NCBI RefSeq assembly: GCF_000153325.1 | Contig: NZ_CH724146.1 | Coordinates: forward strand, 157,836 to 221,835 | Source of the DNA: Photobacterium sp. SKA34 | Lineage (GTDB): Bacteria; Pseudomonadota; Gammaproteobacteria; Enterobacterales; Vibrionaceae | Direction of reading: 5' to 3' | DNA: 64,000 bases | In this document: in pieces, positions 2,230 through 39,074 of the stretch | Layout: each line of letters starts with the position of its first letter | How positions within the stretch are numbered: the first letter of the stretch is position 1 | Program-made: the position numbers and the translations under genes | The notes under the pieces: generated by a model | Told to the model about the DNA's origin: nothing | The model's database searches: none | What the model saw: the letters and a program-made list of their open reading frames with translations, nothing else

Positions 2230-2856
2230 TTATATCTCTGAAGCCGAAGCTGCAATAATGCGCCCGCCACTACGATTGGTTAACTTGGCACAGAACTCTT
2301 CCACTATACGATTATCTAGCTCTATCTGCATAGTGACTTGATTACCATAATCAGCATGTAACTGAGTGCCATTGTATTCACTTAATAATGCTTCAACTAA
2401 AGACACTTGATTATATTCACAACTCAAATGCAATGTTGATGTGATCACTTTTTCTTTCGTTTCGAGTAATGTCAGGGCTTGCTGTACCCCGCCACCATAA
2501 GCTTTTACTAACCCACCGGTACCTAAACGAACACCACCATAGTAACGTGTTACAACAGCGGTGATTTCACCGACACCAGAGCCTGTTAGCTGAGCCAATA
2601 TCGGCTTTCCAGCAGTGCCTGATGGTTCGCCATCATCACTAAAACCCCATTTCATTGAGTCACTAGAACGACCTGCGACAAATGCCCAGCAATTATGGCG
2701 CGCATCATGATGACGCTCTTTAATTTGCTGTACGAAATATTTCGCAGCCTCAATATTAGGGGTATGCGCTAAATAAGTAATAAAACGACTTTTCTTGATC
2801 TCTTCTTCAAATATCACTTCTGCAGTAGGAACAAGATAAGGTTCAGAATTCGACAT
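2230..2856 (-). CDS. yigZ: YigZ, IMPACT-family protein
   Basis: This 208-residue protein belongs to the YigZ/IMPACT (UPF0029) family, whose bacterial role is not settled; members resemble eukaryotic IMPACT, a regulator of translation stress. The family signature is clear: NCWAFVAG (55-62), GFSDDGEPSGTAGKPIL (71-87) and YYGGVRLGTGGLVKAY (105-120). A ferredoxin-like C-terminal domain follows. It is the first gene of the likely yigZ-trkH-hemG operon, divergent from fadBA. The family call is firm; the function is not. Confidence 0.9.
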   Translation of the reverse strand: MSNSEPYLVPTAEVIFEEEIKKSRFITYLAHTPNIEAAKYFVQQIKERHHDARHNCWAFVAGRSSDSMKWGFSDDGEPSGTAGKPILAQLTGSGVGEITAVVTRYYGGVRLGTGGLVKAYGGGVQQALTLLETKEKVITSTLHLSCEYNQVSLVEALLSEYNGTQLHADYGNQVTMQIELDNRIVEEFCAKLTNRSGGRIIAASASEI

Positions 2857-23672: not shown

Positions 23673-24323
23673 ATGGGTTTTGATTTTGATTACATGCTAT
23701 CGTTGATGCCTATATTGTTGAAATACCTACCAACAACATTATTAATGGCAACCATTGGCGCAATATTTTCCCTCATAGTCGGCCTTATTCTCGCGTTAAT
23801 ACGGATTTACCAATTACCACTACTCAATATACTGACTCAGCTTTATATAAGTTTCTTTCGCGGTACCCCATTACTGGTACAGCTCTTTTTACTTTATTAC
23901 GGCTTACCACAGATCATACCAAGCTTGGTCGGGCTAGATGCATTTAGCGCAGCCGTGATTGGTCTTAGTCTGCATTTTGCCGCTTACATGGCTGAAAGTA
24001 TTCGTGCTGCAATTACAGGGGTTGATCGAAGCCAGCGTGAAGCTAGCTTGACGATAGGTATGACAGAATGGCAAACAATGCGGCGTATTATTTTACCGCA
24101 AGCCACCCGTATCGCCTTACCGTCATTGATGAATTATTTTATCGATATGATCAAATCCACGTCACTCGCGTTTACGCTTGGCGTACCAGAGATTATGGCG
24201 AAAGCACAAATGGAAGCCTCATCAAGCTTTAAATTTTTTGAAGCATTCCTTGCCGTTGCAATGATTTATTGGGCTGTTGTAGTAGTGCTTACTCGCTACA
24301 ACAACTGGCAGAAACCCGTTTAG
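23673..24323 (+). CDS. Amino-acid ABC transporter permease with frameshifted C-terminus
   Basis: This is a His/Glu/Gln-type permease of 216 residues from the ATG at 23673. It has hydrophobic helices and the coupling loop EASLTIGMTEWQTMRRIILPQA. The normal C-terminus is lost. After VVVLTR the frame gives YNNWQKPV and stops, but the next frame from 24296 reads LQQLAETRLDRAYVR. Its TGA (24341-24343) overlaps the ATPase ATG in the ATGA manner common in operons. A single-base deletion at about 24294-24296 explains this. The membrane core is intact, so activity may or may not remain. Confidence 0.8.
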   Translation: MGFDFDYMLSLMPILLKYLPTTLLMATIGAIFSLIVGLILALIRIYQLPLLNILTQLYISFFRGTPLLVQLFLLYYGLPQIIPSLVGLDAFSAAVIGLSLHFAAYMAESIRAAITGVDRSQREASLTIGMTEWQTMRRIILPQATRIALPSLMNYFIDMIKSTSLAFTLGVPEIMAKAQMEASSSFKFFEAFLAVAMIYWAVVVVLTRYNNWQKPV

Positions 24324-24339
24324 ACAGGGCATATGTACG

Positions 24340-25076
24340 ATGATAAAGATCAAACAACTTACCAAACAGTTTGGTGAACATACCGTCTTTAGTAACCTTG
24401 ACTTGAACATAAAAAAGGCGAAATCGTAGCAATTATTGGCCCGTCAGGTACCGGGAAATCGACATTTTTACGCTGCCTTAATTACCTTGATAGCGCTAAT
24501 AGCGGTTCGATCACTATCAATGCAACCACAATTGACTGCAGACAGCCGAAAAAAAGTGAGATTTTAGCCCTTCGCCGCCAAACCGGATTTGTGTTTCAAA
24601 ACTATGCCTTATTTAATCATCTCACAGCGCAACAAAATATCAGTGAAGGATTAGAAGTCGTTAAAGGTCAGAATAAACAACAAGCGAAAGCGCGTGCTTT
24701 AGGCATTTTGAGCGATATTGGTTTATCTGATAAAGCCAACGCTTATCCAGCAGCTCTCTCAGGTGGTCAACAACAGCGCATTGGTATTGGTCGAGCAATG
24801 GCATTAGATGCTGAATTATTGTTGCTTGATGAGCCAACATCAGCCTTGGATCCCCTATGGGTAAATGAGGTATTAAGCTTGATCAAACAATTAGCGCAAC
24901 AACAGCAAACTATGTTGATCGTTACTCATGAATTGCAGTTTGCCCGCGAAGTCGCCGATAGAGTGATCTTCATGGCTGACGGCGAGTTTGTCGAGCAAGG
25001 ACCACCACAACAGATCTTCACTCAACCCAAGGATCCACGGTTACAGGCATTCTTAACGCAAATAGAGATCCAATAA
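24340..25076 (+). pseudogene. Amino-acid ABC transporter ATPase, frameshifted near the N-terminus
   Basis: Translation from the ATG at 24340 gives MIKIKQLTKQFGEHTVF, then stops at a TAG (24427-24429) just after an A6 run at 24411-24416. Adding one A restores GEIVAIIGPSGTGKSTFLRC and an uninterrupted ATPase to 25076. The later part keeps the Q-loop (VFQNYALF), signature LSGGQQQRIGIGRAM, Walker B LLLLDEPTSALDP and H-loop VTHEL. The Walker A lies just downstream of the lesion. Either the gene is broken, it is rescued by slippage at the A run, or one base was lost in sequencing. Confidence 0.85.
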
Positions 25077-25995: not shown

Positions 25996-27630
25996 ATGGG
26001 TTCCCAACGTAATATTCTGTTAATTGCCCTACTTTTTGTCTCATTCTTATTATTTCAACAATGGAATGCTGACAAAACTCCTAAGCCTCAAAGCCAAGGT
26101 GTAGCGCAACAATCGACACAAAGCAGTGATATCCCGTCACATTCAGCTGAAGGTCAGCCTCTAACTGATCAAACTAGCTCACAAAACTTAATTACCATTA
26201 AAACGGATGTACTGGAATTAACAGTCGATACGCTTGGTGGTGATGTAGTTGATGCTAAGCTGCTAAAATACAACAACACACTAGATTCAAAAGACCCTTT
26301 TGTACTACTTAACGATACAGATGGTCATGACTACATTGCACAATCAGGTTTAATCGGCCCGAATGGTGCTGATTCTCAACAAGGTGGCCGTGCGCAATAC
26401 AGCGTAACAGCAAAAGACTTTGTAATGGGTCCTGAGCAAAATGAATTACGTGTACCGATGACATTCACTAAAGATGGCATCAATTACACCAAAACATTTG
26501 TTCTTAAGCGTAATGATTACGCTGTTAACGTTGATTACACCGTTGCGAACAACACTGATAAAGCAGCAAGCGTGCAAATGTATGCTCAGCTTCGCCATAA
26601 GTTAAGTGATTCAGGCGGTAGCCTAACAATGCCTACTTACCTAGGTGGCGCATACTCAGCGAACGATACTAAGTACAAGAAATACAGCTTCGACGACATG
26701 AAGGATAAGAACCTTGATGTTGCTGCGAACGAAGGTTGGGTTGCTATCATGCAACACTACTTTGTTTCTGCTTGGATCCCACGTGATGGCGCAGATCAAA
26801 CATCTCAAGTTTACTCGACCACAAGTAATGGTAACGGCTTCATTGGTGTTCGTATGCCAATCGAAACGGTAGCACCGGGTCAAAGTAAAGCAATCAAAGC
26901 AACGCTTTGGGTTGGTCCTAAACTTCAGAACGAAATGGCTGCAACGGCGAAGAACCTTAACCTAACAGTTGATTACGGTTGGCTATGGTTTATCGCAAAC
27001 CCACTACACAAGCTATTGTCATTTATCCATGGCCTTGTGGGTAACTGGGGTATTGCAATCATCATCCTAACGTTCATTGTTCGTGGTGCAATGTACCCAC
27101 TAACAAAAGCGCAATACACGTCAATGGCTAAAATGCGTATGCTACAGCCAAAGATCCAAGCGATGCGTGAGCGTTTAGGTGACGACCGTCAACGCCAAAG
27201 CCAAGAGATGATGGAACTGTACAAGAAAGAGAAAGTTAACCCACTGGGTGGCTGTCTTCCTATCTTGCTACAGATGCCAATCTTCATTGCACTATACTGG
27301 GCATTAATGGAATCAGTTGAATTGCGTCACGCGCCATTCTTCGGCTGGATCCATGACTTGTCAGCACAAGACCCGTACTACGTGCTACCTATCTTAATGG
27401 GTATCACTATGTTCTTTATCCAGAAGATGAGTCCGTCAACAGTGACAGACCCTATGCAGCAGAAGATCATGACCTTTATGCCGGTTATGTTTACTTTCTT
27501 CTTCCTGTTCTTCCCTTCAGGCCTAGTGCTTTACTGGTTAGTGTCAAACATCGTGACGTTAATCCAGCAGACTATTATTTTCCGTGCCCTTGAGAAAAAA
27601 GGCTTACACAGCAGTAAAAAAGCGAAGTAA
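25996..27630 (+). CDS. yidC: Membrane protein insertase YidC (full length)
   Basis: YidC inserts and folds inner-membrane proteins, alone or with SecYEG; known clients include ATP synthase subunit c. Its 544 residues match E. coli (548). A first transmembrane segment (about 5-21) is followed by a low-complexity linker and the large periplasmic P1 domain (about 60-320). The five-helix insertase core begins at [20 protein letters not shown] and keeps the central groove arginine. It closes the rpmH operon with its own terminator. Confidence 0.98.
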
Positions 27631-27644
27631 TCTTCTCTAGCACT

Positions 27645-27674
27645 AAAAAGGCGACCCTCGGGTCGCCTTTTTTA
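27645..27674 (+). terminator. Terminator of the rpmH-yidC operon
   Basis: The 11-bp stem AAAAGGCGACC / GGTCGCCTTTT is followed by a T run, 16 bp after yidC. Confidence 0.95.
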
Positions 27675-27703
27675 TTTGCATTACTCGGACTTTAATACGA
27701 TTA

Positions 27704-27731
27704 TTGATGGTTAAAATTTAATCTTTATATG
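27704..27731 (+). promoter_or_regulatory. Putative promoter of the second yidC copy
   Basis: TTGATG (27704-27709) and TATATG (27726-27731) have a 16-bp spacer. They lie after the yidC terminator and 21 bp before the ATG of the short paralogue, so that gene can be transcribed independently. Confidence 0.5.
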
Positions 27732-27751
27732 GTAGAGCTCGGCACAACATT

Positions 27752-28444
27752 ATGAATCCAGATTTAAATACAGCAGCAATCCCTGATTACGGTTGGTCAT
27801 CCTTTATCGCCAGTCCTTTACATGAGCTTCTTGCCTTTATTCATGGCATTGTAGGTAACTGGGGCATCGCTATCATTATTCTAACGTTGATTGTCCGTGG
27901 CTTAATGTATCCGCTGACTAAAGCGCAATACACATCAATGGCTAAGATGCGTATGCTCCAACCGAAAATCCAAGCGATGCGTGAGCGTTTCGGCGACGAC
28001 CGTCAACGTCAAAGCCAAGAGATGATGGAGCTGTACAAAACAGAGAAAGTTAACCCATTGGGTGGTTGCTTGCCTTTGCTAATACAAATGCCCATTTTTA
28101 TTGCGCTTTATACCGTATTGAATCTATCAACAGAACTACGTAATGCGCCCTTTTTTGGTTGGATCCAAAACTTATCAGCGCAAGACCCATACTACGTGCT
28201 ACCGATTTTAATGGGGATCTCAATGTTCTTTATCCAGAAGAATAGCCCCTCTGCCGTCACCGATCCCATGCAACAGAAAATCATGACTTTCATGCCTGTA
28301 ATATTCACGGTTTTCTTCTTGTACTTCCCTGCCGGACTTGTGTTGTATTGGTTAACCTCCAATATTGTCACCTTGATCCAGCAAACCATTATTTTCCGTA
28401 AATTAGAACAACAAGGCTTACATAGTAGAAAAAATACGAAGTAA
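27752..28444 (+). CDS. Short YidC/Oxa1-type insertase paralogue lacking TM1 and P1
   Basis: This 230-residue protein is nearly identical in large blocks to the C-terminal part of the upstream yidC product, for example [20 protein letters not shown] and [16 protein letters not shown]. It starts at the equivalent of the last stretch before the second transmembrane helix. The first helix and the whole periplasmic P1 domain are missing; all five insertase helices and the groove arginine ([10 protein letters not shown]) remain. The frame is open, with its own promoter-like sequence and terminator, so it looks like a functional tandem partial duplication. Its architecture resembles Gram-positive YidC or mitochondrial Oxa1. 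The ribosome site is weak. Confidence 0.88.
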
Positions 28445-28460
28445 GAGAATATTTGCACTG

Positions 28461-28486
28461 AGGTGGCTTTTTAGTCACCTTTTTTA
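28461..28486 (+). terminator. Terminator of the short yidC paralogue
   Basis: The stem AGGTGGC / GTCACCT (one G-T pair), loop TTTTTA, is followed by a T run 16 bp after the stop codon. Confidence 0.8.
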
Positions 28487-28557: not shown

Positions 28558-29925
28558 ATGAATCAACACATCGATACTATTGTCGCTCAAGCGACACCGC
28601 CGGGTCGTGGTGGCGTCGGCATCATCCGCGTTTCAGGCCCTAAAGCCAAAGAAGTTGCGCTTGCTGTTGCAGGTCGCGAACTAAAAACGCGTTACGCTGA
28701 ATACCTTCCTTTTAAAAATGAAGATGGCACCGCACTGGATCAGGGCATCGCCCTCTTTTTTAAAGGCCCTAACTCATTTACTGGCGAAGATGTGTTGGAA
28801 CTCCAAGGTCATGGTGGCCCAGTACTGATGGATATGATGATCCGTCGTATCTTAAAAATTGACGGGATCCGTGCAGCACGTCCTGGTGAGTTCTCTGAAC
28901 GCGCCTTTATGAACGACAAGCTCGATTTAGCGCAAGCAGAAGCGATTGCCGACTTAATTGATGCAAGCTCTGAAGAAGCAGCCAAAAGTGCGTTTAAATC
29001 ACTGCAAGGTGCATTCTCAACCAAAGTAAATGAACTGGTTGAAGCCTTGATTCATTTACGTATCTTTGTAGAAGCAGCAATTGACTTCCCTGAAGAAGAA
29101 ATTGATTTTCTTTCTGACGGTAAAGTAGGTGGTGATTTAAATGGCATTATCGATCGCTTAAATGCGGTACGTAAAGAAGCCAACCAAGGCGCGATTATGC
29201 GTGAAGGTATGAAAGTAGTCATTGCTGGTCGCCCTAATGCAGGTAAATCTAGCCTGTTAAATGCTCTATCAGGTAAAGATAGCGCGATTGTGACAGATAT
29301 TGCGGGTACGACTCGTGACGTACTACGTGAGCATATCCACATTGATGGCATGCCACTGCACATTATTGATACCGCAGGTTTGCGTGAAGCCTCTGACGAA
29401 GTAGAGCGCATTGGTATTGAGCGTGCGTGGGATGAAATTGCGCATGCTGATCGCGTTCTGTTTATGGTTGATGGCACCACGACAGATGCGACCGATCCCA
29501 AAGAGATCTGGCCTGACTTCATTGAGCGTCTGCCGGCTGATATGGGCTTAACCGTGATTCGTAACAAAGCAGAGCTTACCGGTGAACAAACTGGTATCTG
29601 TCATGCCAATAATCCAACCTTAATTCGATTATCAGCACGTACGGGTGATGGTGTAGATGCACTACGTGAACACCTAAAACAATGTATGGGGTTCTCTGGT
29701 ACCACTGAAGGCGGCTTTATGGCACGCCGTCGTCACTTAGATGCACTAGAGCGTGCCGCTGAGCACCTTGCTATAGGCAAAGAGCAACTTGAAGGCTTTA
29801 TGGCTGGTGAAATTCTTGCCGAAGAGTTACGTCTTGCTCAACAACACTTAAGTGAGATCACAGGTGAATTTACATCGGATGATTTACTCGGTCGTATCTT
29901 TACCTCGTTCTGTATTGGTAAGTAA
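28558..29925 (+). CDS. mnmE: tRNA modification GTPase MnmE
   Basis: MnmE and MnmG (encoded at 34.7 kb) together form the 5-carboxymethylaminomethyl group on wobble uridine. It has 455 residues (454 in E. coli). The N-terminal folate-binding domain holds [15 protein letters not shown]. The G domain has [10 protein letters not shown] (G1), TTRD (G2), DTAGLREA (G3) and NKAEL (G4). The protein ends in the family's FCIGK with the C-terminal cysteine. Confidence 0.97.
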
Positions 29926-39017: not shown

Positions 39018-39074
39018 TTTCGCTGTTTTCCCAAGCACGGATCGTGTAAAGGAATGGACTCGAGGAACGAATAC

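Follow-up and report, generated by a model that had tools for sequence, protein, structure and literature searches.

A core-only YidC paralogue encoded beside full-length YidC in one clade of Photobacterium

Introduction

Two YidC proteins per cell have been described as a Gram-positive condition, unlike that of Gram-negative bacteria (PMC10588454). The window analysed here, a stretch of 64,000 nucleotides from Photobacterium sp. SKA34, has the gene order rnpA-yidD-yidC1-yidC2-mnmE (names other than yidC were read from the translations), in which a full-length yidC is followed directly on its 3′ side by a second, much shorter one. The locus raises the questions of whether a stripped YidC core has been kept as a working insertase beside the intact enzyme, how the N-terminus of such a protein would leave the cytoplasm, and where the gene came from. 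A search of the literature by titles and the starts of abstracts found no paper on this gene. A survey of acidophiles (PMC10490939), which names yidC redundancy in its abstract and gives multiple copies in one place but a single copy for all the acidophiles studied in another, was not used.

Results

yidC2 encodes the YidC core without TM1 and P1

The coordinates of the locus are given in Table 1. The only Pfam match of yidC2 is to 60KD_IMP (PF02096, residues 37–215, 220 bits, cut-off 35), and the TIGR03592 match scores 240 bits (cut-off 84.3); yidC1 has both YidC_periplas (PF14849, 306 bits) and 60KD_IMP. The Pfam profile search found no PF14849 (P1 domain) in yidC2, the NCBIfam yidC_nterm model aligns by its last 24 positions only, with a score under cut-off, and the best full-length YidC model gives 451.5 bits against a cut-off of 740, so yidC2 does not count as a full-length YidC with TM1 and P1. 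The first-pass annotation had described a core-only copy starting just before TM2. The absence of TM1 and P1 is borne out, but the gene begins ahead of EH1, and that helix is retained as well. Eleven residues precede the DYGW motif, and the ATG is the sole in-frame ATG, GTG or TTG before TM2 in the window and is invariant in the six genomes that carry the gene. The two cores share 185 of 219 amino acids (84%) and 510 of 657 nucleotides, with dN about 0.10 and dS 1.17–2.03 (three methods).

Table 1. Features of the yidC1-yidC2-mnmE region (window positions)
Feature	Position	Strand	Basis
yidC1, full-length YidC, 544 aa, TM1 + P1 + core	25996..27630	+	Domain matches
Terminator-like hairpin of yidC1, 12 pairs	27645..27672	+	Hairpin scan
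19-bp block TGGTTAAAATTTAATCTTT before yidC2, identical in all six genomes; may be a promoter or regulatory element, no consensus sigma70 match	27708..27726	+	Alignment
yidC2, core-only YidC paralogue, 230 aa	27752..28444	+	ATG ORF; Pfam; 6/52 genus genomes; dN/dS 0–0.057
Codons for acidic N-tail and EH1 (residues 1–34)	27752..27853	+	0 Lys/Arg, 3 Asp/Glu in 6/6 genomes; EH1 helix 14–34 in model
Groove arginine codon, R49 = E. coli R366	27896..27898	+	Alignment
Terminator-like hairpin of yidC2, 9 pairs	28460..28481	+	Hairpin scan
mnmE, gene after yidC2; possible source of yidC2 start region (suggestive)	28558..29925	+	

Predicted fold and conserved residues

The AlphaFold2 model of YidC2, computed from an input alignment of 33 rows drawn from the window and the other loci examined, has a pLDDT of 76.5 and a pTM of 0.73, with residues 1–8 and 227–230 under 50. 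It shows EH1 (14–34), the C1 hairpin and five core helices. Its best PDB match is E. coli YidC [6al2, TM-score 0.84 (by query length), rmsd 1.4]; Bacillus halodurans YidC2 (3wo7) gives a TM-score of 0.77. A plain hydropathy scan returns just three strong peaks (26–44, 105–123 and 180–198), so that the count of five helices depends on homology and on the predicted structure. Positive charge prevails in the C1 loop (10 Lys/Arg, 6 Asp/Glu) and in the C-tail (5 Lys/Arg, 1 Asp/Glu); the short C2 loop has no Lys/Arg and one Asp/Glu, which we count against the explanation preferred below.

By alignment, YidC2 residue n corresponds to E. coli residue n+317. T362, R366 and Y516 (E. coli numbering) are kept in yidC2, the groove arginine having been correctly recognized in the first-pass annotation, and residue 517 is Trp, as it also is in yidC1. 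E. coli YidC with 517W is reported to complement fully even with a neutral residue at 366 (PMC8920935). By its core domain and its predicted core fold, with a groove and a conserved positive residue, YidC2 belongs to the YidC/Oxa1/Alb3 insertase superfamily.

Seventeen alignment columns set all six yidC2 sequences apart from all 19 yidC1 sequences examined. They lie (E. coli numbering) in EH1 (333, 334 and 342), at the outer end of TM3 (438–444) and in the P2 loop (448 and 457), with further ones in TM2, TM5, TM6 and the tail. On our reading by homology, about half would be on a periplasmic surface that could be covered by P1. That location would suit a protein which modulates YidC1 or the Sec holotranslocon as its partner and inserts no clients itself, as would the retention of the C1 loop, a SecY contact (PMC5766551); T362, R366 and the aromatic residue (Trp) at 517 are, however, kept as expected of a working insertase, and we consider a purely regulatory partner distinctly unlikely.

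The N-terminus is acidic and carries no recognizable signal

Gram-positive YidCs carry a lipoprotein signal before the core. Inspection by eye of the YidC2 N-terminus revealed no signal-like hydrophobic stretch and no Cys before TM2, and thus no N-terminal lipoprotein signal of the Gram-positive type. The stretch ahead of GNWG contains three Asp/Glu and is free of Lys/Arg in every one of the six yidC2 sequences. At EH1 position 25 (E. coli 342) each of them has Glu or Asp, where the 19 yidC1 sequences show Lys, Ser or Trp and the seven of the clade all show Lys. This charge pattern fits a signal-less, N-out first helix and so agrees, indirectly, with the earlier proposal that the first helix enters the membrane as in Oxa1.

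Such insertion cannot simply be assumed, because E. coli YidC lacking TM1 alone is expressed and not properly inserted (PMC5766551). The same source describes TM1 and P1 as largely dispensable and reports that the TM1-less protein complements when given a cleavable PelB signal (with SecYEG co-expressed). That construct, as described there, kept P1 and needed the signal, whereas YidC2 has neither TM1 nor P1 nor signal. In our view a likely cause of the failed insertion is that the large P1 is unable to cross without a signal. YidC itself can move short acidic tails of the kind left in YidC2, as in Pf3 coat.

yidC2 is confined to one Photobacterium clade

PF02096 was searched in 52 genomes of the genus, 329 of the family and 281 of the class (own genome included), with one genome per species; the class genomes are an even sample of a larger group, in which less common cases could have escaped notice. 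The number of matches was recorded for every genome, and second matches were inspected singly in the two-match genomes only. Within the genus, 51 of 52 genomes have a match (the exception, G047, is 74% complete), and a short second copy lies at one and the same place, about 0.8 kb behind the yidC1 core, in six (G000, G002, G003, G021, G023 and G039). In the family there is a match in 325 of 329 genomes and two in 14, seven of which belong to this genus (the six carriers and G041); the other seven comprise four split or contig-end genes, two second matches below cut-off and one distant match (84.9 bits, 351-aa frame). At class level 272 of 281 genomes have a match, 257 of them a single one, which supports the earlier view that one yidC is the rule. 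Fifteen have two; the second matches of the 14 besides our own stand in frames of full-length size (six, 536–559 aa, stop to stop), in frames of 830–1540 aa (six) or in a 223-aa frame (one, 40 bits, profile positions 28–154), or fall below cut-off (one), and none is both short and high-scoring. The other 277 genomes of the family and 280 of the class that were searched yielded no further core-only tandem copy. The second copy, for which a survey of Vibrionaceae had been suggested, is thus present in six genomes of one Photobacterium clade and is not general in the family.

G041 lacks yidC2, and the last codons and the terminator of yidC2 remain between its yidC1 and mnmE. In a tree of the yidC1 TM1–P1 region this genome is nested inside the carrier clade (support 89 and 97). 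On these sequences the absence is a derived loss by deletion, which would make yidC2 non-essential.

The searches turned up other YidC-like genes. The second PF02096 match of G041 (L037, 1669–4287, 872 aa) is a YidC-like domain (77 bits) fused to a sulfatase (PF00884, 29 bits, cut-off 25) and sits behind an ABC-transporter-like gene; we found no literature evidently on YidC-sulfatase fusions. In G071, G081 and G322 of the family, the sole yidC match is read as two adjacent pieces, one of which contains a TGA in G071 and G081, through either assembly error or a broken gene. In the class search, all three genomes drawn from one genus (G413, G510 and G584) have a second, diverged YidC match (132–138 bits, 548–559 aa frame).

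Selection and codon adaptation

Over 15 pairs, dN/dS of yidC2 is 0–0.057, compared with 0–0.068 for the yidC1 core; between the two subclades dS reaches 1.55–1.77 for yidC2, which is near saturation and makes the ratios between subclades rough, against 0.27–0.41 for yidC1. The six genomes have neither a stop nor a frameshift in yidC2, which is therefore under purifying selection, and the gene is not a single-strain oddity under relaxed selection. The earlier suggestion of an undecayed gene with a selected role is supported by dN/dS far below 1 in six genomes. That yidC2 is a functionless, decaying fragment of a tandem duplication is accordingly most improbable: the copy is truncated, has no recognizable promoter or Shine-Dalgarno sequence and was deleted in G041, but relaxed selection and disruptions are both missing, and the start codon and the 19-bp upstream block are invariant.

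With three atp genes as reference, the codon adaptation index is 0.56 for yidC2, 0.75 for the yidC1 core, 0.67 for mnmE and 0.59 for rnpA. The poorer codon adaptation suggests a lower level of YidC2 than of YidC1. This has a bearing on the idea that YidC2 does the work of YidC1 and is kept to add insertase capacity, with no specialization. The close similarity of the cores and the retained groove residues T362 and R366 would suit a dosage or backup copy, but lower codon adaptation argues against an increase of the total dose, and the 17 separating columns, many of them in EH1, the TM3 end and the P2 loop, argue for divergence from yidC1. We regard such a copy as unlikely.

Flanking elements

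The first-pass annotation gave yidC2 its own promoter and terminator. A terminator-like hairpin does follow the gene, with the caveat that the 6 kb scanned hold nine such sites against 5.3 (sd 2.3) in shuffles. The + strand showed no sigma70-like site from 27471 to 28364 (11 in the entire scan, against 11.1 in shuffles), and the one element that points to a promoter is the invariant 19-bp block. No Shine-Dalgarno sequence is obvious by eye ahead of yidC2. An ATG uORF of eight codons (27729–27755), the stop of which overlaps the yidC2 start, was considered as a conserved leader peptide and rejected; it is present in G000, G002, G003 and G039 and not in G021 and G023.

The gene had also been placed next to the atp genes. 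The atpI-like gene lies at 39054, 10.6 kb downstream, behind mnmE, ABC-transporter, mnmG, rsmG and parA/parB-like genes (names read from the translations), and a link with the atp genes was rejected on this distance. Elsewhere in the window, an amino-acid-type ABC ATPase gene (24322–25076) is apparently frameshifted, its N-terminus being in one frame and the part from Walker A onward in another, by sequencing error or in reality.

Origin of yidC2

The yidC2 sequences form one clade (100/100), with two subclades identical to those of the yidC1 TM1–P1 region. The hairpins behind yidC1 and yidC2 both continue into TTTTTTATTTGC, which makes it probable that the duplicated piece included the terminator. 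The gene arose once, in an ancestor of one Photobacterium clade, probably when the 3′ part of yidC was duplicated in tandem together with its terminator, a mode in keeping with the spacer and with the repeated terminator.

The start region of yidC2 resembles that of mnmE, with TTATGAATC in common, as expected if the duplicated unit extended into the first codons of mnmE. As a control, every ATG on either strand of the window (2,273–2,275) was used in anchored alignments, the ATG of yidC2 itself and its neighbours being ranked too, in five of the six carriers (all except G002). The mnmE start ranks 5–14 in G000, G003 and G039 for two spans with 21 coding bases and 28–71 for upstream sequence alone; in G021 and G023 it ranks 54–711 and the control fails. 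An mnmE origin of the start region is thus suggestive only.

Transfer from a relative of the phosphoreum type (P. malacitanum / P. piscicola), in place of duplication within the clade, concerns the origin alone and is compatible with any function. The protein tree groups yidC2 with phosphoreum-type yidC (93/88), a placement favoured by 7.9 likelihood units, and two residues (L35 and N153, core alignment) are common to yidC2 and the phosphoreum group alone, in states absent from nine outgroup rows. The nucleotide tree, on the other hand, prefers yidC2 with the yidC1 of its own clade by 3.7 units, the AU test rejects neither placement (p 0.20–0.85), and the sites shared exclusively with its own yidC1 (11 nt and 5 aa, the five aa columns varying among outgroups) outnumber those shared exclusively with the phosphoreum group (4 nt, 2 aa). 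Of the placements compared, one outside either group fares worst (AU p 0.036 and 0.024; KH and SH do not reject it). Transfer seems to us rather doubtful.

Discussion

We think it probable (roughly 0.6) that YidC2 is a minimal, auxiliary five-helix insertase of the YidC/Oxa1 type, derived by partial duplication, weakly expressed and acting mostly apart from Sec. Since YidC2 has no P1 and has an acidic residue in place of the EH1 lysine, its short acidic N-tail would cross the membrane without a signal sequence, probably aided by the resident YidC1 or Sec; TM2 would then enter N-out and the groove would take its normal orientation. The clients inserted by YidC2 would be membrane proteins of small size or simple structure, brought by the ribosome or SRP. 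The lower level suggested by codon adaptation points to an auxiliary rather than a housekeeping insertase.

Largely holotranslocon-independent action is proposed because the P1 contact with SecF and the TM1 contacts with SecY/E/G are missing. SecF is reported to bind P1 residues 215–265 (PMC7618853), loss of TM1 from E. coli YidC to reduce contact with SecE and SecG, and TM1 and C1 to be the main SecY contacts (PMC5766551). Of TM1, C1 and P1, YidC2 keeps only C1. Because crosslinks to SecY persist in E. coli YidC deprived of TM1 (PMC5766551), contact of YidC2 with SecY through the retained C1 loop, and Sec-dependent work with it, may also occur.

E. coli YidC (6al2/3wvf) is the closest known system, with a core 70–78% identical by structure alignment and with the same EH1, C1 hairpin, core helices, groove arginine and positive C-tail; YidC2 differs in the loss of TM1 and the whole of P1, in an N-tail without Lys/Arg and in being a second gene copy. 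The five-helix core-only layout and the presence of two paralogues per cell recall the Gram-positive pairs (B. subtilis SpoIIIJ/YqjG, S. mutans YidC1/2 and B. halodurans 3wo6/3wo7). The fold is similar to 3wo6/3wo7 (TM-score 0.73–0.77), at an identity of just 32–33%, and by descent YidC2 groups with Vibrionaceae YidC: unlike the Gram-positive proteins it derives from a diderm YidC, has no N-terminal signal sequence and has a full-length partner. Mitochondrial Oxa1 and plastid Alb3 are N-out cores without the bacterial TM1–P1 module, a layout that YidC2 would share. YidC2 is distant from them (24% identity to human OXA1L) and lacks their organellar targeting and ribosome- or SRP-binding tails; the absence of TM1 from Alb3 is stated in PMC5766551.

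A more far-reaching version, which we put forward tentatively and would not favour, is that a signal-less, N-out, P1-free YidC evolved de novo in a diderm, is inserted by its parent enzyme and serves a separate Sec-independent route, its start possibly captured from mnmE and the charge switch in EH1 making the N-tail translocatable.

The core-only form is already known from Gram-positive bacteria and mitochondria; what is new is such a form beside full-length YidC in a diderm. The role of TM1 and P1, and the way in which a signal-less YidC core gets its N-terminus out, have so far been addressed through engineered E. coli constructs, among them those of PMC5766551. Here a stripped core is kept beside the intact enzyme, and nature supplies the controls, namely six carriers, one genome with a deletion (G041) and, within each carrier cell, a full-length sister, so that division of labour, like the P1/TM1 question, can be put to a direct test. 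It has been proposed (Lewis and Hegde, PMC8675477) that the groove of an ancestral YidC let its own N-terminus cross, and yidC2 offers a living test of that proposal. If the more far-reaching version were true, YidC2 would be a natural minimal insertase in which the ancestral layout of Oxa1 has arisen again in a Gram-negative cell.
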